From Anaerolineae bacterium (GTDB lineage Bacteria > Chloroflexota > Anaerolineae > Anaerolineales > Villigracilaceae): a stretch of DNA of 43,679 nucleotides. The stretch lies in the NCBI GenBank assembly GCA_018648685.1, contig JABGQT010000162.1:1-43679 (forward strand). Reading direction: 5' to 3'. The notes beneath the pieces were generated by a model. It made no database searches. It was given only the letters and a program-made list of their open reading frames with translations, and was not told where the DNA came from. The position numbers and the translations under genes are program-made. This document shows positions 35,257 through 43,679 of the stretch, one piece after another (position 1 is the stretch's first letter; each line of letters starts with the position of its first letter).

Positions 35257-37062
35257 ATGGCAAAAACACCCCCTCCCCACTGGGATCTTTCCAACGTTTA
35301 TCCCGGTCTTGATTCGGCTGAATTTAATCAGGCACTTAAAACACTGTCTTCACAGATCAATGCCTTTGAAGCCTTCTTCGCAAATAAAGTTTCCGCAAGT
35401 AGTACGCAATCATCAGCAGAGGAGCTTGGCAAACTTGCAGAAGAAGTACTTAATCGCTTCAATGAGAGTAATGATCTAGCAGAAACAATTAGCTCGTACA
35501 TATACTCGTTTATTAGCACCGATTCATTCAATCAGCTTGCGAAAAGAGTACTCTCGCAATTTGAGCAGATCGAGGTCAATTTGCGGATGTTAGGCGTGCA
35601 AGCGCAGCAATGGATCGGCTCTATTGCAGATCGCTTACCTGAAATTATGCAAGTATCTGAATTGGCGCAAGCACATGCCTTCTTTCTGCAGGAAACAGCC
35701 GAACAGAGCCGCTACCTAATGAGCGAGGCAGAAGAATCGCTGGCGGCAGCCTTGAGCCTAAGCGGAACAAGTGGCTGGGAAAAGCTACAGGGCACGGTTA
35801 CATCTCAACTGAAAATAAAGTTCGATCTGGACGGTGAAGAGCAAGAGCTTTCATCACCTGCTTTAATTAACCTGCACTCACATCCAGACGAAGATGTGCG
35901 CAAACGCGCTTACGAAGCTGAGATGGCGGCCTGGGAAGCCGTACAAGAACCCTTAGCATCATCCATGAACGGGATTAAGGGCGCAGTTAACACCCTTAAC
36001 GAACGGCGCGGACGCGAGGATGCGCTTCATGCCTCGATCGACGCTGCACGCATTGACCGCGCAACACTAAGTGCCATGCTCGAAGCAATGGAAGATTCTT
36101 TCCCTGTCTTCCAACGTTACTTTTTGGCAAAAGCAAAACGTCTCGGTAAGGAAAAATTGCCCTGGTGGGATATTTTTGCTCCAATAGGTAGCGCCGAAAA
36201 AACGTATAGCTACGCCGAAGCCAGCACATTTATTTTAGAGCAATTTGGCAGCTTCTCCCCCGAACTGAAAAATCTGGCACAACGCGCCTTCGATGGCAAC
36301 TGGATCGATGCTGAGCAGCGCGTTGGTAAACGTGGCGGGGCATTCTGCATGGGTGTGCCGAACGTTAAGGAATCACGCATCCTGTCGAATTTTGACGGGA
36401 CTTTCGACCAAGTTTCCACGCTGGCACACGAATTGGGACATGCTTTCCACAATGAGTGCATCTACAGCGCGGACAAAACAGCCCTTCAAGGCGAAACCCC
36501 GATGACCTTGGCAGAAACTGCGTCCATCATGTGCGAAACGATCGTTGTCAATGCTATCCTGGAACAGATCAGCGATCCCGATGAAGAATTAGCTATTCTC
36601 GAGACCGCGCTGATCAGCGCCAGTCAAGTTGTTGTCGATATTTATTCACGCTACCTCTTCGAGAAGGAAGTTTTTGAAAAACGCGCTGATGCCGAACTCT
36701 CGGCCGAAGAACTTTGCGAGATCATGGAAAATGCCCAGAAAGCGACTTATGGGGATGCGCTAGACGAGCAATATTTACACAAATATATGTGGACGTGGAA
36801 GCCACATTATTATTCGGCTGACCTCTCGTTTTATAATTATCCCTACACTTTTGGACTTTTATTTGCAACAGGACTATACGCGATCTACGAGCAGCGGGGC
36901 GACGAATTCATCCCCGACTATATCAACTTGCTTGCCAGCACCGGCGAAAAGCGCGCGGCTGAATTAGCCGACCGCTTCGGGATCAATATCCGCGAGAAGA
37001 AATTCTGGGAAGATAGCCTGAAGGTAATTGAGAAACAAGTAGATCGTTATTGCGAGCTTTAG
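35257..37062 (+). CDS. pepF: Oligoendopeptidase F (M3B family)
   Basis: A 601-residue cytosolic zinc peptidase that degrades oligopeptides. The zinc site is H391-E392-x-x-H395 in STLAHELGHAFHNE, with the third ligand Glu in LAETASIMCE. Other family blocks are GKRGGAFCMGVP (about residues 363-374), SNFDGTFDQV, and the C-terminal YYSADLSFYNYPYTFG. Length agrees with PepF (about 600). An AGGAG ribosome-binding site lies 8 nt before ATG 35257. It is the last gene of the + strand run and is followed by a strong terminator. Confidence 0.95.
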   Translation: MAKTPPPHWDLSNVYPGLDSAEFNQALKTLSSQINAFEAFFANKVSASSTQSSAEELGKLAEEVLNRFNESNDLAETISSYIYSFISTDSFNQLAKRVLSQFEQIEVNLRMLGVQAQQWIGSIADRLPEIMQVSELAQAHAFFLQETAEQSRYLMSEAEESLAAALSLSGTSGWEKLQGTVTSQLKIKFDLDGEEQELSSPALINLHSHPDEDVRKRAYEAEMAAWEAVQEPLASSMNGIKGAVNTLNERRGREDALHASIDAARIDRATLSAMLEAMEDSFPVFQRYFLAKAKRLGKEKLPWWDIFAPIGSAEKTYSYAEASTFILEQFGSFSPELKNLAQRAFDGNWIDAEQRVGKRGGAFCMGVPNVKESRILSNFDGTFDQVSTLAHELGHAFHNECIYSADKTALQGETPMTLAETASIMCETIVVNAILEQISDPDEELAILETALISASQVVVDIYSRYLFEKEVFEKRADAELSAEELCEIMENAQKATYGDALDEQYLHKYMWTWKPHYYSADLSFYNYPYTFGLLFATGLYAIYEQRGDEFIPDYINLLASTGEKRAAELADRFGINIREKKFWEDSLKVIEKQVDRYCEL

Positions 37063-37079
37063 CACCGCTGTTTTACATA

Positions 37080-37108
37080 AAAAAGGTCAGCGAAATGCTG
37101 ACCTTTTT
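37080..37108. terminator. Bidirectional intrinsic terminator after pepF
   Basis: A 12-bp perfect stem, AAAAAGGTCAGC (about 37080-37091) with GCTGACCTTTTT (37097-37108), encloses a 5-nt GAAAT loop and has A and T runs on both sides. It lies between convergent genes and can stop transcription from both. Confidence 0.9.
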
Positions 37109-37133
37109 CTGTTTATAGAACTATTATTCCACA

Positions 37134-38210
37134 TTACCAAACTATAGCACGCACAACTGGGATCTTTCTAAGCAAAAGAGTGATGATCAAAGAAATAAGA
37201 TATATTGCAATCACCGTAAGCGGGACAGAAAACAGAGGATTGCCCAGCTTATAACTTAAAACAAAACCAAAATACCCGTTTTCCAAAGATGTTAGCACTA
37301 TTCCATGGACTAAATAAACACCAAAACTTGTTTCCCCTAGCATCTTCACTATAGATTCCATACGTGCATTTATTATGAGCCGCTTATTTTCACCAAAATA
37401 TTGAAAGGCGATGAAGAAAGAGGCGGTCATCAAGATAACATTTGGCGCAAGGTAATCATAGAGATAAAGAAAAAGACGTACTTTCGTCGCAGAGAGATAC
37501 CACGTGCCCACCGCTGTACCAATCCCTAGCACTAGATAAGACAGAAAAAAAGAAACGATCTGTCTTTGAGTGTATGTATATTTGATAAGTAAATACCCAA
37601 GAATAAAGTAGCCGAAATACCCCGTTATAAAACCAAACTGACTAGAAATGCTGATGTCTGAAAATTTTTCTATCGTCGATATAGCAGGTCCACTAAGCAC
37701 CCACAAAATAACGAGGTACCATAATTCGCTTTTACTTGCTGCCGAGACAAATAGGCGTAAAACCGGAACAAAAACATAAATGCCTATCAGGGCATAAAAG
37801 AACCAAAGGTGCCCAAAGGTTGGCTCCGCAAGAATTTCATAAACGATTGATTCTTTTATTCCCAAAAACACGTATTCGCTTTTCAGAAAGTAGCCTTCCC
37901 ACAGCAAATAAATTATTGACCAAGCAATGAAGGGGATGAAAACTTTTTTCATTCTTTTTTTGTAGAAATTCTTCACTGACTCTTGCTTGCTAAGCAAAAG
38001 ATATCCACTGATCATAAAAAAGATCGGTACACTGATCCTGGAAAATGAATCGTACAGATTTCCTATCATGAAATCTTGAAAAGGAACCTTTTGCCACTCG
38101 TATACAATGGGGCCGGAAACATGAACGACAATAACAAGCAGAACACTCACAAAACGAAGTGCATCAATCCAATAATAATGTTCTTGTTTTTCTATTTCAT
38201 TCTTCGTCAT
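37134..38210 (-). CDS. Acyltransferase-3 family membrane protein
   Basis: A 358-residue protein with about ten hydrophobic helices. The N-terminal signature is WIDALRFVSVLLVIVVH, with the catalytic-type H30 at the end of the first helix, followed by SVPIFFMISGYLL and FGHLWFFYALIGIYVF. These are marks of the AT3 family, which transfers acetyl or other acyl groups to surface polysaccharides, peptidoglycan or lipids. The coding sequence is visibly richer in A and T than its neighbours, and it is a lone gene facing pepF across a bidirectional terminator, so recent acquisition is possible. The acceptor substrate is unknown. Confidence 0.88.
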   Translation of the reverse strand: MTKNEIEKQEHYYWIDALRFVSVLLVIVVHVSGPIVYEWQKVPFQDFMIGNLYDSFSRISVPIFFMISGYLLLSKQESVKNFYKKRMKKVFIPFIAWSIIYLLWEGYFLKSEYVFLGIKESIVYEILAEPTFGHLWFFYALIGIYVFVPVLRLFVSAASKSELWYLVILWVLSGPAISTIEKFSDISISSQFGFITGYFGYFILGYLLIKYTYTQRQIVSFFLSYLVLGIGTAVGTWYLSATKVRLFLYLYDYLAPNVILMTASFFIAFQYFGENKRLIINARMESIVKMLGETSFGVYLVHGIVLTSLENGYFGFVLSYKLGNPLFSVPLTVIAIYLISLIITLLLRKIPVVRAIVW

Positions 38211-38239
38211 TTATACAACCCAACTCCAACAAGAATGGA

Positions 38240-38269
38240 AGCTTGGTGAGCACACAACTCACCTAAGCT
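38240..38269 (-). terminator. Possible terminator hairpin after the phospholipase-D-like gene
   Basis: AGCTTGGTGAG and CTCACCTAAGCT form an 11-bp stem with one bulged base and a short loop, 22 nt past the stop of the minus-strand gene at 38291. On the minus strand it is followed only by a weak T-rich stretch, so termination efficiency is doubtful. Confidence 0.35.
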
Positions 38270-38290
38270 CCTATTCTCGCTTAGAAAAAA

Positions 38291-39559
38291 CTACTCGCAA
38301 GGAAATTTCTCTGGCTCCGGATCAGCTGCAATAGACCAAACCTTATTAACTTCCTGAATATACAGCGCTGCAATTTCTGCATTATCTACAATCAGTATAT
38401 TTTCGTCGTTGCTCTCAGTGGCATTATCAGAGAAATTAAGTGAACCGGTGATAACGATACGCTCATCAACAACAACCACTTTATGGTGCAGGAAGCTGCC
38501 ATTTCCATCACGGCGAACTTGCATGCCGGAGCAAAACATATCGCCCAGTTCGCTATACACTGTGCTACTGCCTGTTTTCTCGAAAATCCCCATCACTTCT
38601 ACGCCATTCTCATAGCGCTCCGTAATAGCATCTTCCATACCATCATGCGTGAAGGAAAACGCCATGAAGTGGATGCTGCTCTGCGCACCCTCGAGGACAG
38701 GAATAATATAAGTGTCGATTACATCATCTTCTGCTGCGAAATATGCCTGAATTTCAGTGCCATCAACGATAACGCTTTGTTCTCCAGCGGTCGAGGTTGA
38801 ACGGGGACCAAACTCACCATTCCACATTTCGTCAAACTCGCGCTCGTAAATTTCAGCTAACGCGGGTGAATGAACGACGATCACGTTATTATCTTGTTTA
38901 AAAATACCATTTTCTGTGATGTTGGTTGAGCCTGTCCAAACGATTTCGCGATCAAATATCCAAAATTTATTGTGCATAAGTGCGCCGCGTGCATCATCTT
39001 TGATCTCGATCCCTTCATCTTCAAGCATCGCAAATTGTCCGTGACCAGGTTCTTCGTCCGATTCGATACCGTGTTCATCGTCCGTGACCCAGCGCACATC
39101 CACGCCGCGATCATGTGCGCGGATAAGCGCGTCCGCAACAGGCGTCAGATCAAATTCAAAAGAGGCGATATGGATCGATTCTTGCGCAGCGTCAATTTTT
39201 TCAATAATTCTCTCTTCAATTGAGCCTGCATAATTTTCGGGGTCGTTCATGTTTTGCCAATCTGCAAAGTAGACTTCCCACCAATCGCCCTGCGTGCTTG
39301 TTTCAATCACTGGGACAGGAGCCACTGTTGGCTCTTGCTCGGGCTCTTGCGCAGGTTCTTCTTCAGGCGCTTGGGCAACAGCATCCGCACCTCCTGTCAG
39401 GGAAATGGCAACAGAAGGCACTTCCATATTTTCAAGGTCAGCAAACAAACCTAGTGGATCTTCTCCTGTCAGCATAAAATATCCCCCAAGAATAAGTAAA
39501 CCCACTAATAAAAACAATACCATCTTCGAATTGCCAGATTTTCGTTTACGCGCAGCCAT
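38291..39559 (-). CDS. Membrane-anchored phospholipase-D-like protein
   Basis: A 422-residue protein with a basic start (MAARKRKSGNSK), one membrane helix (about 13-30) and an acidic Pro/Glu/Gln-rich linker (about 65-85), so the catalytic part is predicted to be outside the cell. It has two HxKxxxxD motifs: H196/K198/D203 followed by GSTN, and H358/K360/D365 followed by GSLN, each with the downstream Asn/Glu features of the family. PLD-superfamily members are phospholipases, nucleases or transferases. The short form with two motifs and helical KIDAAQESIHIASFEF is typical of bacterial PLD-like nucleases and phosphodiesterases. A GAGGAG ribosome-binding site precedes ATG 39559. The substrate is unknown. 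Confidence 0.9.
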   Translation of the reverse strand: MAARKRKSGNSKMVLFLLVGLLILGGYFMLTGEDPLGLFADLENMEVPSVAISLTGGADAVAQAPEEEPAQEPEQEPTVAPVPVIETSTQGDWWEVYFADWQNMNDPENYAGSIEERIIEKIDAAQESIHIASFEFDLTPVADALIRAHDRGVDVRWVTDDEHGIESDEEPGHGQFAMLEDEGIEIKDDARGALMHNKFWIFDREIVWTGSTNITENGIFKQDNNVIVVHSPALAEIYEREFDEMWNGEFGPRSTSTAGEQSVIVDGTEIQAYFAAEDDVIDTYIIPVLEGAQSSIHFMAFSFTHDGMEDAITERYENGVEVMGIFEKTGSSTVYSELGDMFCSGMQVRRDGNGSFLHHKVVVVDERIVITGSLNFSDNATESNDENILIVDNAEIAALYIQEVNKVWSIAADPEPEKFPCE

Positions 39560-39613
39560 GATACTCCTCTTTCTTATAAAAAAAATTTATCTCGGGGAAT
39601 TAAAATCCCATCC

Positions 39614-40081
39614 CTAACGATTGAATAAAGAACGGAGGGAAGTTTTTTTCTCGCCTGCCCCCTTCTTTTCAAGTGAATTATTTTCCAACCAATCAAGGAG
39701 ATTTCTGATAAATTCGACAGATGTTTTACCTGTAAATTTTGTTGAAGAGGGGAGCGAAAGCGCCTCACCATAGAGAGCTTGAGCCATCTTCTCCAATTTT
39801 AACCAAAGCTGATCTTTTTCTTCCTGAGAACTTTCTTTTTCACGTTGCACCCAAACACGGATAGCACGCATTAAGCGACGAGATGCTTTCATTTTCGGGT
39901 ACATTGCTTCTTCAGCATGTTCGTCGCTTAAATCGCCAGTCTCTTCAGCAATCCGTTTTACATTCTTGATTCCCCAATCTTGCAAAAGAGCAGCCGTTGA
40001 TTCATCCAAGCCACTAACTAGTCCTTCGTTTTCCAGAACACTTTCTGCAGCTTTCTGAATGCGTTTGCTAAGTAAGTCCAT
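39614..40081 (-). CDS. Uncharacterised 155-residue protein
   Basis: A soluble, mostly helical, highly charged protein that I do not recognise. I start at ATG 40081 (MDLLSKR), 7 nt after AAGGAG; ATG 40087 is only one base from that site. The central part (DLSDEHAEEAMYPKMKASRRLMRAI, in two pieces) and the end (EFIRNLLDWLEN) suggest helical packing. No signal peptide or membrane helix is visible. It lies 54 bases upstream of the phospholipase-D-like gene on the same strand and may be co-transcribed with it. Confidence 0.75.
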   Translation of the reverse strand: MDLLSKRIQKAAESVLENEGLVSGLDESTAALLQDWGIKNVKRIAEETGDLSDEHAEEAMYPKMKASRRLMRAIRVWVQREKESSQEEKDQLWLKLEKMAQALYGEALSLPSSTKFTGKTSVEFIRNLLDWLENNSLEKKGAGEKKTSLRSLFNR

Positions 40082-40131
40082 CGACATTCTCCTTCATCTT
40101 TAATGATCAAAGCAGCTATATTTTACCAAGT

Positions 40132-40160
40132 AAAAAGAGTCTCCAGAATTGGAGACTCTT
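40132..40160 (-). terminator. Terminator of the WxL-like surface operon
   Basis: A 10-bp perfect stem, AAGAGTCTCC (40135-40144) with GGAGACTCTT (40151-40160), and a 6-nt loop. On the minus strand a T run follows (to 40132). It lies 33 nt past the stop of the DUF916-like gene. Confidence 0.85.
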
Positions 40161-40192
40161 AAATTCTCTAATAAACTCAACAGGTATCTTAT

Positions 40193-41308
40193 CTATCGTA
40201 GCACATGCCTAGACTTTTTCGCTTCTTTTTTGCCCCCAACCCAATAAATAATTCCGCCAAGAATAAAGGCGAGCACAAAAGAAGCCACTGCTATTGTGAT
40301 CCAGACCGACCCTGCCTCTTTTTCAGCATCTGCAAAAAAGACTTCTATTTCTTCAGGAGAAAAAATATTCTCGCGGACAACACCTTCTAACTCTGGTTGC
40401 CCGTTTTTTATTTTCATCCCAACGCCTTCAAGGACAACCTTTTTCCCTTCGTGTTCCAAAAAAACAGAAAGTAAATACTCTCCATCTGCAAATCGAGCTG
40501 CGCGCGGCACATAAAATGTAACTGCGTCGCCAGGCAGGATCGTATCAAACTGAAGCGGAATTGTCGTGATCAGATTCTCAGCAGTACGATCCGTGACTAC
40601 AAAAAAACCTGATGATTGCAGGAAAACATTTCCTGTATTTCTTAGATCAACTGCAAAAGTTGTTCCATCTTCCTCTTGTTGATACAGGAAAATATTATCA
40701 ATTTCCAAAGAGGATATCTGCTCACCCGGAATATCCATCACAACAGCCACGCCAACACGTCGAATGACCTTCACGTTAAATTGTGCTTCTCCATCGGCAG
40801 CGTCTGGCGAATCCAAGGTGCTTACCTCTGGGATCGCTTCAACAACCAATCCTGCAATATGCTGCCCGGCAGAAGCGTCGGCAGGGATACTAACGCGGAA
40901 TGGAATTTTCTGTTCTTCTCCTGGTGCCAAAGTGATCTCATTGACTGAAAGAGATATCCACGCATGAGACCCAAGGCTTGCTCCCGTTGAGGCTCCTCCA
41001 AATTCAGTAAAATCGGTACCGCCATTCCGAGCAGTGACCCCGTCGGCGGCATAGATTTTAAGCGTGACCGCTTCGTCGCCATCATTGAGCACCAAGGCTT
41101 CGTCATCAAAGACTGAGCCTGGAGAAACACGATATGAAAAATAAGAAAAAGTTTCTTCTTGCCCCTCCAAGGCTTTTGTCGGGCGAATGCCAAAAGATAT
41201 GCCAGTAGAAGACTGTGCGATGACAGAGTCGACAAAAGATCCTAACATTGAGCCTGCAAAAACAATAACCAGAAATATTCTTTTGGAACTTCTAAATATT
41301 TTCATCAT
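40193..41308 (-). CDS. DUF916-like (WxL-interacting type) cell-surface membrane protein
   Basis: A 371-residue exported protein. It has a signal peptide (about 1-32, ending VDSVIAQ), two beta-rich domains, a C-terminal membrane helix (about 335-360, SVWITIAVASFVLAFILGG) and a basic tail (KKEAKKSRH). The first domain has the pattern IRPTKA...YFSYRVSPGSVFDDEALVLNDGDEAV (given in parts), which matches the N-terminal domain of DUF916 proteins found with WxL surface proteins in Gram-positive bacteria. Later, FYVPRAARFADGEYLLSVF resembles the second domain of these proteins. The start ATG 41308 is 7 nt from AGGAG. The gene lies 21 nt after the second WxL-like gene. It probably anchors or presents those proteins at the surface (inferred). 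Confidence 0.78.
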   Translation of the reverse strand: MMKIFRSSKRIFLVIVFAGSMLGSFVDSVIAQSSTGISFGIRPTKALEGQEETFSYFSYRVSPGSVFDDEALVLNDGDEAVTLKIYAADGVTARNGGTDFTEFGGASTGASLGSHAWISLSVNEITLAPGEEQKIPFRVSIPADASAGQHIAGLVVEAIPEVSTLDSPDAADGEAQFNVKVIRRVGVAVVMDIPGEQISSLEIDNIFLYQQEEDGTTFAVDLRNTGNVFLQSSGFFVVTDRTAENLITTIPLQFDTILPGDAVTFYVPRAARFADGEYLLSVFLEHEGKKVVLEGVGMKIKNGQPELEGVVRENIFSPEEIEVFFADAEKEAGSVWITIAVASFVLAFILGGIIYWVGGKKEAKKSRHVLR

Positions 41309-41329
41309 CGCCTTTCTCCTTAGAAGAGT

Positions 41330-41836
41330 TTACGGGCCTGTGTTGATCGCAATTGTTATTGTATTTGTGTAAGTCCCGTAATAAGTTTCTGCCGGAACGG
41401 TTAATTGAAATTCTGGCAAAAAATCGTAAATACCATCACTTGTTCCGCTGGCCGCCGAAATGAATTTGATGGCCGTACCGCTTAATGGGACAAAGCTGGT
41501 TTGTGTTGATGTTGGCAAAACAGGGTCACCGGAAACAAGACTAATATTTGCATCCGCCAAACGAAATTCCAGATATCCAACATCAATGATCCCCCCCGCC
41601 CCATTTCCAAAATTCGTTGCCAAGATAGTTGCATGCCAACCGCCTGCTTCCCCACTCGCATCAACCTGCCACGCTGCTGTTGATCCTGCAAGAATTTGAT
41701 CGTAACCATTCAACGTAAGCCCGGGGAAATTCACAGCCGATGTAGATACAGACAAAGCAGCGGAGTGTGTAACCAATATTCCTGCGGCAAGAAAAGCCGC
41801 AAATATTGCTAAGAACACACTCCGCTTACTATTCAA
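41330..41836 (-). CDS. WxL-like secreted surface protein, second copy
   Basis: A 168-residue secreted protein with a signal peptide (about 1-27) and one beta-rich WxL-like domain, homologous to the product of the upstream gene. Shared blocks are GGWHATILATNF, LADANISL, IKFISAA and FQLTVPAETYYGTYTNTIT. The first motif is W67-H68-A69 instead of Trp-x-Leu, and the last strand (YTNTITIAINTGP) lacks the second Trp. There is no ATG: two tandem TTG codons (41839, 41836) follow AGGAG, and the second has the better 6-nt spacing. The gene lies 16 nt after the first copy, with its own ribosome-binding site in the gap. Confidence 0.78.
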   Translation of the reverse strand: MNSKRSVFLAIFAAFLAAGILVTHSAALSVSTSAVNFPGLTLNGYDQILAGSTAAWQVDASGEAGGWHATILATNFGNGAGGIIDVGYLEFRLADANISLVSGDPVLPTSTQTSFVPLSGTAIKFISAASGTSDGIYDFLPEFQLTVPAETYYGTYTNTITIAINTGP

Positions 41837-41852
41837 CAAAAACTCCTGACAA

Positions 41853-42413
41853 TTATGGTCCTGATACCGCCGTTACTGTGATCGTCGATGTATATGTTCC
41901 TGAACCAACAAAGGTCTCAGCTGGTACTTCAAGCTCAAAATTCGGGGCAATAGCATAGCTGCCCATGCCTGTATTTATTGCGGCAGAAAGGAATTTTAGC
42001 GAGCCTGTATCCGGAATCGGGGTCAGAGTTGTCACCGCCGAAACAGGCTTGGTGTTGCCGGCAGTAATCGTCACGTTCGCATCCAGCAATTGGATCTTGA
42101 ACTCAGAATCTGCTTGAGCAATATCAATGGTTTTATCTACACCGTCCGAAAAATCGGTCGCCGCAATTGTCAAATTCCAACCAGCACCAGTGCCACGTGC
42201 ATCTGTTGCTGACCAAGCGTTTGAGCCAGAAGCGCTCGTCGCAGTCTGATCTGTACCATCCAATGTTACGCCACTCAAGGTCACATTCGCTATGGTCTCA
42301 GAAAGTGTACCACCGGTAATTGTGACCGTGCCCGTTTCAGCAGCAGCTGCAATCGCACTTACTGCCAACAAGGCGAAAACTAACAAGAAAGCCAATAATC
42401 TTTTTTTCATCAT
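41853..42413 (-). CDS. WxL-like secreted surface protein, first copy
   Basis: A 186-residue secreted protein starting at ATG 42413, 6 nt after AAGGAG. A longer in-frame ORF from 42644 runs through the riboswitch leader and is not believed. The signal peptide is MMKKRLLAFLLVFALLAV to about residue 25 (IAAAA). The mature protein is Thr/Ser/Ala-rich and beta-rich. It carries W79-N80-L81 in GTGAGWNLTIAATDF, matching the first WxL motif (Trp-x-Leu after a Gly-rich turn), and ends with YTSTITVTAVSGP, where classical members have a second Trp-x-Leu. In Gram-positive bacteria WxL domains attach proteins non-covalently to the cell wall. It is the first gene of an operon with a c-di-GMP-type riboswitch in its leader. 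Confidence 0.8.
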   Translation of the reverse strand: MMKKRLLAFLLVFALLAVSAIAAAAETGTVTITGGTLSETIANVTLSGVTLDGTDQTATSASGSNAWSATDARGTGAGWNLTIAATDFSDGVDKTIDIAQADSEFKIQLLDANVTITAGNTKPVSAVTTLTPIPDTGSLKFLSAAINTGMGSYAIAPNFELEVPAETFVGSGTYTSTITVTAVSGP

Positions 42414-42482
42414 TTTATACTCCTTATATCTTTGTACAACCAGATAATTCCTATTATGTAAAGTTTCAATAAGCACCTCCAC

Positions 42483-42518
42483 AAAAAAAAGTGGTTTGAA
42501 TTTTTTATCCAAACCACT
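42483..42518 (-). terminator. Expression-platform terminator of the riboswitch
   Basis: On the minus strand AGTGGTTTGGA (42518-42508) pairs over 11 bp, with one G-U, with TTCAAACCACT (42500-42490). The loop has 7 nt, and a run of seven more T (42489-42483) follows directly. It lies between the aptamer and the ribosome-binding site of the first WxL-like gene, the usual place for a transcription-attenuating platform. Confidence 0.85.
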
Positions 42519-42532
42519 CAAGATCTTTTCCC

Positions 42533-42625
42533 TGTTAGCGGCTTGGCGATCATAGTCAAAAAAAAATCTAACCTTAGACCCATAGCTTTGCGCCCTCAAC
42601 TTTCGTTGAGTATGCCTTTTTCTAT
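42533..42625 (-). promoter_or_regulatory. Class-I cyclic-di-GMP riboswitch (GEMM-I type)
   Basis: Read on the minus strand, the leader contains the GEMM-I landmarks in order. These are AAAAAGGCATACTC; a CTCAAC-GAAA-GTTGAG hairpin with a GNRA loop (42610-42595); GGGCGCAAAGCTATGGG; TCTAAGG; a variable T-rich loop; and CTATGATCGCCAAGCCGC (ending about 42537). The CGCAAAGC and CTAAGG blocks and the GAAA loop match the conserved core of c-di-GMP-I aptamers. By eye, the G in AAGGCA aligns with the ligand-contacting G20 of the Vibrio Vc2 aptamer, which favours c-di-GMP over cGAMP. An intrinsic terminator follows, so the switch should act on transcription. I could not run a covariance model. Confidence 0.8.
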
Positions 42626-42633
42626 TCACATAC

Positions 42634-42639
42634 AGTATA
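42634..42639 (-). promoter_or_regulatory. -10 element for the riboswitch and WxL-like operon
   Basis: TATACT on the minus strand (42639-42634) would place the transcription start near 42627, just before the aptamer. A -35 hexamer is not recognisable. The placement relative to the riboswitch and the fabD stop (42670) is the main support. Confidence 0.45.
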
Positions 42640-42669
42640 GACACTTTCTACATAAACTACATTGCAGCC

Positions 42670-43626
42670 TTATAACAAAAATAACTCAGAGAATTTACTG
42701 ACATCTTTTGGCGTACCAAGCGCCACTCCTTGTAGACCTCGATCGATCCTGCGCAACAGCCCTGAAAGAACGCTACCGCTCCCTAATTCAAAAAAAGTTT
42801 CTACGCCTTGCGCCGCCATATATTGAACAGATTCTGTCCAGCGGACACGGGATGTCAACTGAGCGCCCAGATCAGATTGGATTTCAGCTACTGTCGCCAA
42901 GGGGGATGCTGTCACGTTACCGACTACAGGGATACTTGCTTCCCATATATTGGCATCTGCTAACGCCTGATCAAATTCCGCTTGAACCACGCTCATCAGC
43001 GGAGAATGTGCTGCAATGCTCACCGCCAACGGAACAGCACGCCGTGCGCCCGCTTCTTTTGCCAAGCCGAGCGCGCGCTCCAAAGCCGGTTTTGCGCCAG
43101 AGATGACCACTTGCCCGGGGCAATTATCATTTGCCACTTCGACAACATCATCACCTTCTGTGGCATCTGCGCAAATCTTCTCGAGAGCAAGGATATCCAG
43201 CCCGAGAATGGCAGCCATCCCGCCCGGAGCGAGTTCGCCCGCGCGCTGCATTAGCTCTCCACGTCGGCGCACAAGACGTAGACCGTCTGAGAAAGAGAGT
43301 GCGCCTGTAACTGCCAGCGCGCTTAACTCGCCGAGAGAATGCCCGGCCACGGAAGCAGGTTGAATTTCGGGGACGATCTCGGTCAACACTCTCCATGCTG
43401 CAAATGAGTGAACAAAGAGAGCGGGCTGCGTATTAACAGTGTCGTTCAATTGATCCGCATCTTCACCCCACATTATGGCAGAAAGTGAAAAGCCGAGAAT
43501 TTCATCTGCTTCTTCAAAGGTTTGGCGTGCAATTGAATATTCTTGAGCGATCTCATGCCCCATGCCGAGGGTTTGCGAGCCTTGACCGGGGAAAATAAAA
43601 GCTATTTTTTGCGTATTTGTATCCAT
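42670..43626 (-). CDS. fabD: Malonyl-CoA:ACP transacylase
   Basis: A 318-residue FabD, which loads malonyl groups onto acyl carrier protein for fatty-acid synthesis. The start region is IAFIFPGQGSQTLGMG, and the nucleophile Ser (S97) is in AGHSLGELSALAV. The conserved Arg is in LVRRRGELMQRA, the catalytic His in SIAAHSPLM, and the substrate-loop element VGNVTASP is present. I start at ATG 43626 (MDTNTQKIAF), which gives the usual short N-terminus; ATG 43638 would add four residues, and neither has a strong ribosome-binding site. Other fab genes may lie upstream, outside the window. Confidence 0.94.
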   Translation of the reverse strand: MDTNTQKIAFIFPGQGSQTLGMGHEIAQEYSIARQTFEEADEILGFSLSAIMWGEDADQLNDTVNTQPALFVHSFAAWRVLTEIVPEIQPASVAGHSLGELSALAVTGALSFSDGLRLVRRRGELMQRAGELAPGGMAAILGLDILALEKICADATEGDDVVEVANDNCPGQVVISGAKPALERALGLAKEAGARRAVPLAVSIAAHSPLMSVVQAEFDQALADANIWEASIPVVGNVTASPLATVAEIQSDLGAQLTSRVRWTESVQYMAAQGVETFFELGSGSVLSGLLRRIDRGLQGVALGTPKDVSKFSELFLL

Positions 43627-43679
43627 TTTTTGTATCATCTCAATAATTTGGGGTAGATGAAAAAGACCAACCCAAATTG

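Follow-up and report, generated by a model that had tools for sequence, protein, structure and literature searches.

Cyclic-di-GMP is usually expected to mean attachment. The closest described relative of the leader reported here is Cd1 of Clostridioides difficile, in front of the flgB operon, a kinetic transcriptional OFF switch whose terminator is built from strands T and H and whose antiterminator uses the aptamer strand A (available sections of PMC9262584). C. difficile has seven functional class-I switches, all of them OFF and acting by termination, and Bc2 of Bacillus thuringiensis, which controls the collagen adhesin gene cap, is an ON switch (PMC6366702, in the part available to us). 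The fold also has variants that respond to c-AMP-GMP (accessible text of PMC9481103). On the protein side, more than 91% of WxL proteins belong to Firmicutes and a WxL domain carries two WxL motifs (excerpts of PMC9772566); two WxL proteins with one WxLIP are the commonest make-up of a WxL cluster (excerpts of PMC10599100).

Here we analysed a 43,679-nucleotide stretch of Anaerolineae DNA (the window), in which a c-di-GMP riboswitch with a terminator had been proposed to control a WxL-like surface operon. We consider it likely that the leader is a class-I c-di-GMP riboswitch that acts by transcription termination, and we predict it to be an OFF switch. The aptamer match, the conserved gene order and the conserved competing pairings support this computationally. 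We infer the sign, ligand binding, the operon extent and the assignment of the surface complex to the low-c-di-GMP state, and c-di-GMP most likely represses the WxL operon. The layout is that of Cd1, but the window switch belongs to another phylum, its sign is a prediction only, and its target is a wall-bound surface complex rather than flagella. With Bc2 it shares the action of a c-di-GMP-I riboswitch on the transcription of a surface protein; however, Bc2 is ON, whereas the window switch is predicted to be OFF. The parts are known, and the pairing of the switch with a WxL operon and the predicted direction look new. As the original prediction had supposed, a literature search found no report joining WxL, c-di-GMP and a riboswitch; a search for WxL and Chloroflexi returned only off-topic work, as judged from titles and the first lines of abstracts.

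The aptamer, its leader and the WxL genes

The GEMM-I aptamer of the original prediction was borne out by an Rfam 15 scan of both strands at gathering cut-offs, in which RF01051 (c-di-GMP-I) was the sole RNA family match in the window (gathering cut-off 35 bits, E 1.9e-12, model positions 1-87). All of the proposed core motifs were found: GGCATAC, a GAAA-capped hairpin, GCGCAAAGC, TCTAAGG and ATGATCGCC. Across five copies of the aptamer, three pairs in the GAAA hairpin and two pairs in the terminal P3 change on both sides. The window copy reads GGCAUAC, with a U where all four sister copies and 30 of 30 surveyed relatives have A and read GCAAA, and this U for A in GGCAAAC may weaken ligand binding. 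Position 20, which is A in cGAMP variants, is G (GGC) in the window and the four sister copies, and c-di-GMP is therefore favoured over cGAMP as the ligand. One sister copy (G008) also scored above the cut-off for RF03167 (c-di-GMP-I-GGC). Compared with RF01051 riboswitches in general, the full-length match, the core motifs, the helix layout and the position as a 5' leader before envelope genes are the same, but one highly conserved base is off consensus and the target is a WxL-WxL-WxLIP operon.

Among the predicted surface genes, WxL1 and WxLIP are real members of the WxL and WxLIP families by their Pfam scores (Table 1). In the alignment, WxL1 keeps the first WxL motif (WNL) and has lost the second. 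WxL2 had no Pfam match, and its homology was detected by BLASTP only; its orthologues in four sister loci are 39-44% identical to the window WxL1 (E 2e-24 to 7e-32), and at the motif the window WxL2 has WHA, the five sister loci WNA or WNI. Because only the first of the two motifs is present, in WxL1, we call these proteins WxL-like. A WxLIP profile of six relatives matched EfmWxLIP1 in the PDB (E 2e-6). Pfam gave no match to the HBD (DUF3324) in WxLIP, the hydrophobic C-terminal stretch is present in the sequence, and the AlphaFold model is of low confidence (pLDDT 54.3, with 66.9 for WxL1). Foldseek with the WxL1 model found no match at E <= 0.001, and a PDB profile search with WxL found none up to E 1. 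The structure models thus contribute nothing to the assignment. As in the WxL clusters of Bacilli (small WxL, large WxL, WxLIP), there are two WxL genes and one WxLIP gene; in contrast to them, the locus lies in Anaerolineales, both WxL proteins are small, the second motif is lost, there is no Pfam HBD match and a riboswitch stands in front.

Table 1. Positions of the leader elements and genes of the WxL locus in the window
Feature	Coordinates	Strand	Evidence
PLD/NucT-like neighbour, two domains, hydrophobic N-terminal stretch	38291..39559	-	PF13091, 173.9 bits
Conserved neighbour, no assigned function	39614..40087	-	found in four loci (window, C38, G003, G004)
Terminator-like hairpin behind WxLIP, likely transcript end	40135..40160	-	terminator scan
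WxLIP, PGBD domain and hydrophobic C-terminal stretch	40193..41308	-	PF06030, 46.4 bits, cut-off 27.3
WxL2, diverged WxL paralogue, 169 aa	41330..41839	-	39% identity to WxL1
WxL1, secreted small WxL protein, 186 aa	41853..42413	-	PF13731, 40.9 bits, cut-off 25
Intrinsic terminator; 5' arm GUGGUUUGG as predicted switching strand for aptamer strand CCAAGCCGC	42489..42519	-	terminator scan, pairing, folding
c-di-GMP-I (GEMM-I) aptamer	42534..42626	-	RF01051, 72.4 bits, 87/87 positions; compensatory changes over five copies
TATACT, promoter-like -10 box between fabD and aptamer	42634..42639	-	in 6 of 6 loci
fabD, upstream neighbour	42670..43638	-	TIGR00128, 343.2 bits, cut-off 260.9

Because a terminator-like hairpin stands behind WxLIP, the regulated operon is probably limited to WxL1-WxL2-WxLIP. 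The conserved neighbour and the PLD/NucT-like gene, for which NucT models match below cut-off, probably belong to a separate transcript; an acyltransferase gene also lies behind WxLIP with them. The inclusion of the PLD and acyltransferase genes in the regulated operon was set aside in view of this hairpin, and for this reason we do not claim that dispersal is aided by a nuclease made at low c-di-GMP.

The predicted terminator after the aptamer was found as a hairpin followed by a run of eight T, with a core stem of nine Watson-Crick pairs, or 13 with G-T allowed. The terminator scan listed nine sites in 36900-42760 against 6.4 (sd 2.5) in shuffled sequences and is by itself weak evidence; the hairpin is kept in the sister loci, and this conservation is the better indication of a terminator. 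The TATACT box is likewise present in every locus compared, including one that has no aptamer (G004), which agrees with the proposed promoter. However, a sigma-70 scan called no promoter at this site and no good -35 box was seen by eye, so the promoter reading draws on conservation only. The proposed ribosome-binding site was found as AAGGAG, 6 bases 5' of the WxL1 ATG at 42413. Behind the terminator, at 42410-42469 (-), there is also a GGAGG and a 19-codon frame that begins with TTG and overlaps the WxL1 start in ATGA. Comparable short frames were seen by eye in G002 and G004 and were not seen in C38 or G008; the frame is possibly a leader peptide, or due to chance.

Conservation of the switch and the WxL genes among relatives

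The set of relatives comprised 100 genomes, with the genome of the window (G000) included and eight same-genus genomes among them. WxLIP was found in six: G000 (two loci), G002, G003, G004, G008 and the more distant G070; it was not found in four of the eight same-genus genomes (G001, G005, G006 and G007). An RF01051 aptamer precedes WxL1 in both loci of G000 (C43 and C38), which are the only two WxL places in that genome, and in G002, G003 and G008. Switch-WxL-WxL-WxLIP is thus the order at two places of the own assembly and in three of the eight same-genus genomes; the G003 contig begins just before the aptamer, so that no fabD is seen at this locus. RF01051 is common by itself, in 53 of the 100 genomes. 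Counted by PF06030 over the class, WxLIP is rare: of 396 genomes, 2 have it, the own genome and G365.

The second copy, C38 (L005:6289-12751), has the order fabD-switch-WxL1-WxL2-WxLIP-unknown-PLD-acyltransferase, with 38-88% identity per protein. A fabD gene over the cut-off was found once each in G002, G003, G004, G005 and G008 and twice in G000, with two partial matches in G001 and none in G006 and G007. The gene order of G004 is split in the own genome, with the PP2C-like side on C38 and the pepF-hflX-like side on C43 (names assigned by eye). The two locus copies and two fabD genes in the assembly may reflect a duplication or a bin of two species.

G004 (L047:5739-5906) carries fabD-WxL1-WxL2-WxLIP with the TATACT box and a hairpin whose T run is broken, and lacks the aptamer; both RF01051 places of this genome lie elsewhere. 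G004 has lost the aptamer and is a natural escape from the predicted c-di-GMP control. The more distant WxLIP carriers G070 and G365 had no RF01051 match either, which together with G004 indicates that WxL genes in general do not share this predicted control.

Competing pairings and the direction of the switch

The 5' arm of the terminator (GUGGUUUGG or GUGGCUUGG) and the P3 3' strand (CCAAGCCGC or CCAGGCCGC) are complementary, and this P3 strand was the best upstream partner of the arm in all five leaders. The observed duplex energy was reached by 3, 3, 9, 4 and 1 per 1000 dinucleotide-shuffled leaders, respectively, and by 8/1374, 66/3238, 22/1639, 36/1397 and 12/1385 of the 13-mers from flanking DNA (0.6-2.6%). 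The nine antiterminator pairs over five copies gave standard pairs in 45 of 45 cells; two of the pairs vary, each on a single side, which indicates conservation and not compensatory change. The C38 copy has a changed terminator 3' arm and an intact GUGGUUUGG, as expected if this strand has a second partner.

Folding at increasing lengths without ligand gave the window copy a P3 probe pair with a probability of 0.56-0.61 at 102-118 nt, an antiterminator at 1.0 at 130-138 nt and a terminator at 0.99 at 150 nt. Once the 5' arm has emerged but the 3' arm is still to come, the antiterminator is ahead of the aptamer by 6.0-13.6 kcal/mol in the five copies, with antiterminator probabilities of 0.99, 0.94, 0.46 (G002), 0.85 and 1.0. 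In these models the aptamer gives way to the antiterminator, and the terminator comes only afterwards. Against this stands that at aptamer length without ligand the bare aptamer is not the predicted best fold; it lies 1.6-6.5 kcal/mol above the minimum, with a P3 probability of 0.02-0.37. At full length, the aptamer plus terminator is within about 1 kcal/mol of the antiterminator in the window copy and C38, and about 8-11 kcal/mol better in G002, G003 and G008. The full-length terminator wins in these last three whatever the ligand, and the switch would therefore have to work kinetically, during transcription.

We propose that RNA polymerase would start near TATACT and make the aptamer first. 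Bound c-di-GMP would lock P3 so that CCAAGCCGC is not free, and GUGGUUUGG would then fold with its 3' partner into the terminator, turning WxL1-WxL2-WxLIP off. At low c-di-GMP, GUGGUUUGG would pull CCAAGCCGC out of P3 to form the antiterminator, the operon would be read and the WxL-WxLIP complex would be laid on the wall. The original prediction had implied that c-di-GMP promotes attachment through the WxL proteins, and this direction is not upheld, since the competing pairings make a predicted OFF switch. Its riboswitch, terminator and WxL-like operon stand, with the operon narrowed to WxL1-WxL2-WxLIP and its control by the switch a prediction.

Another reading, which we regard as rather unlikely, is that the aptamer is decaying: the window copy with GGCAUAC would no longer switch usefully, C38 would be the intact copy and the hairpin would mainly end fabD transcription. 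The off-consensus U, the second switch copy in the assembly and G004, which keeps the hairpin behind fabD without an aptamer, would fit this reading, but the window copy retains its high aptamer score, the other core motifs, the full competing pairing and an unbroken T run. It is quite unlikely that the switch is ON, with the ligand preventing the terminator and WxL made at high c-di-GMP. Such a switch would fit attachment, and Bc2 is a class-I ON switch on an adhesin (PMC6366702, in the available part). However, the published ON switch pilM has a mutually exclusive aptamer and terminator (PMC9262584, in the available part), whereas here the two are compatible and each competes with the antiterminator, as in Cd1. 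In the own genome 28 GGDEF and 2 EAL places scored over cut-off, so c-di-GMP is probably made. Control by 3',3'-cGAMP (GEMM-Ib) in place of c-di-GMP is very improbable, for although cGAMP-responsive variants of this fold exist, the G at position 20 in all five copies and the many GGDEF places speak against it.

Predicted OFF layouts and a triple-module RNA in the lineage

We surveyed 30 RF01051 loci within the order (L007-L036), one per genome and the best 30 of a longer list. Sixteen of them had a T run together with a hairpin of <= -8 kcal/mol, 3 had a weaker hairpin and 11 had none. The best partner of the 5' arm was the same P3 strand in all of the 16 terminator-bearing loci but L035, and 2 of these 15 loci are WxL loci already counted above; shuffled arms chose the P3 strand in 1685 of 4800 cases, 39 of them as strongly. 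The OFF layout is thus the rule in the terminator-bearing half of the surveyed loci. The hairpin-less loci, 8 of 11 of which precede one small exported protein family, must use another expression platform.

In 11 of the 30 loci (L009, L012, L015, L019, L022, L025, L027-L030 and L032), a BLASTP search from L009 showed the gene behind the aptamer to encode one exported family, of about 210-250 aa. One scanned member had a weak sortase-domain match (18.8 bits, cut-off 26.6), and 8 of these 11 loci have a second aptamer close by among the matches listed. Pfam on seven downstream proteins gave three matches over cut-off (GHL15; beta-helix/Pel9A-like; GH25 with LysM), one sub-threshold sortase match and three proteins without a match.

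Outside the window, the own genome carries three abutting GEMM-like modules at C26:14969-15274 (-), of which C26:14985-15270 (-) corresponds to L088:1986-2271 (-), with a promoter-like start seen by eye, a closing helix and a terminator, and with no gene behind them on the same strand within 2 kb. The third module scores well as a c-di-GMP-I aptamer in the window genus (65.5 bits), and the second is weak there (39.8 bits in one scan, 30.5 in another); the first is not listed by Rfam, which lists only the single-aptamer family there. Compensatory change was found in 15 of 95 predicted pairs over five sequences. The relatives compared were L056, L054, L052, L055, L086, L083, L084, L085 and L087, and G079, from another family, has a relative of nearly full length (positions 10-287 of 306, 69%). 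Among the matches listed, G018, G040 and G051 have abutting triples with all three modules above cut-off; G016 looks alike by eye, although only two of its modules are listed. The closing helix covaries, being retained while its sequence changes (for example AACGCUC/GAGCGUU, GCACUC/GAGUGC and UUGCUC/GAGCAA).

The triple-module RNA has no constant downstream gene. By eye, a methyltransferase or nitroreductase gene converges on it in G000, G002, G004 and G007, a large gene does so in G051, and same-strand amidohydrolase-like, response-regulator-like and RuvB-like frames lie next to it in G018, G040 and G016; in G008 a same-strand frame begins about 300 bases further on. Tandem c-di-GMP-I RNAs are known (347 doublets and 12 triplets), and tandems of c-di-GMP-II lie in front of a putative surface anchor protein (available sections of PMC9481103). 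The available text of the literature found on tandem c-di-GMP-I RNAs does not mention this RNA. We regard it as a candidate stand-alone c-di-GMP-binding RNA, possibly one that acts in trans or buffers the ligand, and it is possibly an odder find than the WxL switch.

Taken together, we tentatively suggest, as a possible reading, that c-di-GMP-I OFF switches of this lineage silence exported envelope proteins at high c-di-GMP, that the WxL-WxLIP wall complex, elsewhere mostly found in Bacilli, was recruited as a coat of the low-c-di-GMP (non-sessile or dispersal) state, and that the stand-alone triple c-di-GMP-I-like RNA may tune the regulon. The predicted sign is opposite to the usual attachment story. 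WxL complexes gain a candidate regulator that can be tested in the tube, and c-di-GMP riboswitch control would extend to a surface system for which our literature searches found no prior report. The recurrence of the OFF layout asks what the surfaces of uncultured Anaerolineales carry at low c-di-GMP. In the same genus, a further c-di-GMP-I aptamer at L053:4036-4120 (-) (G007:C137:8535-8619) lies directly before a gene that by eye is response-regulator-like.
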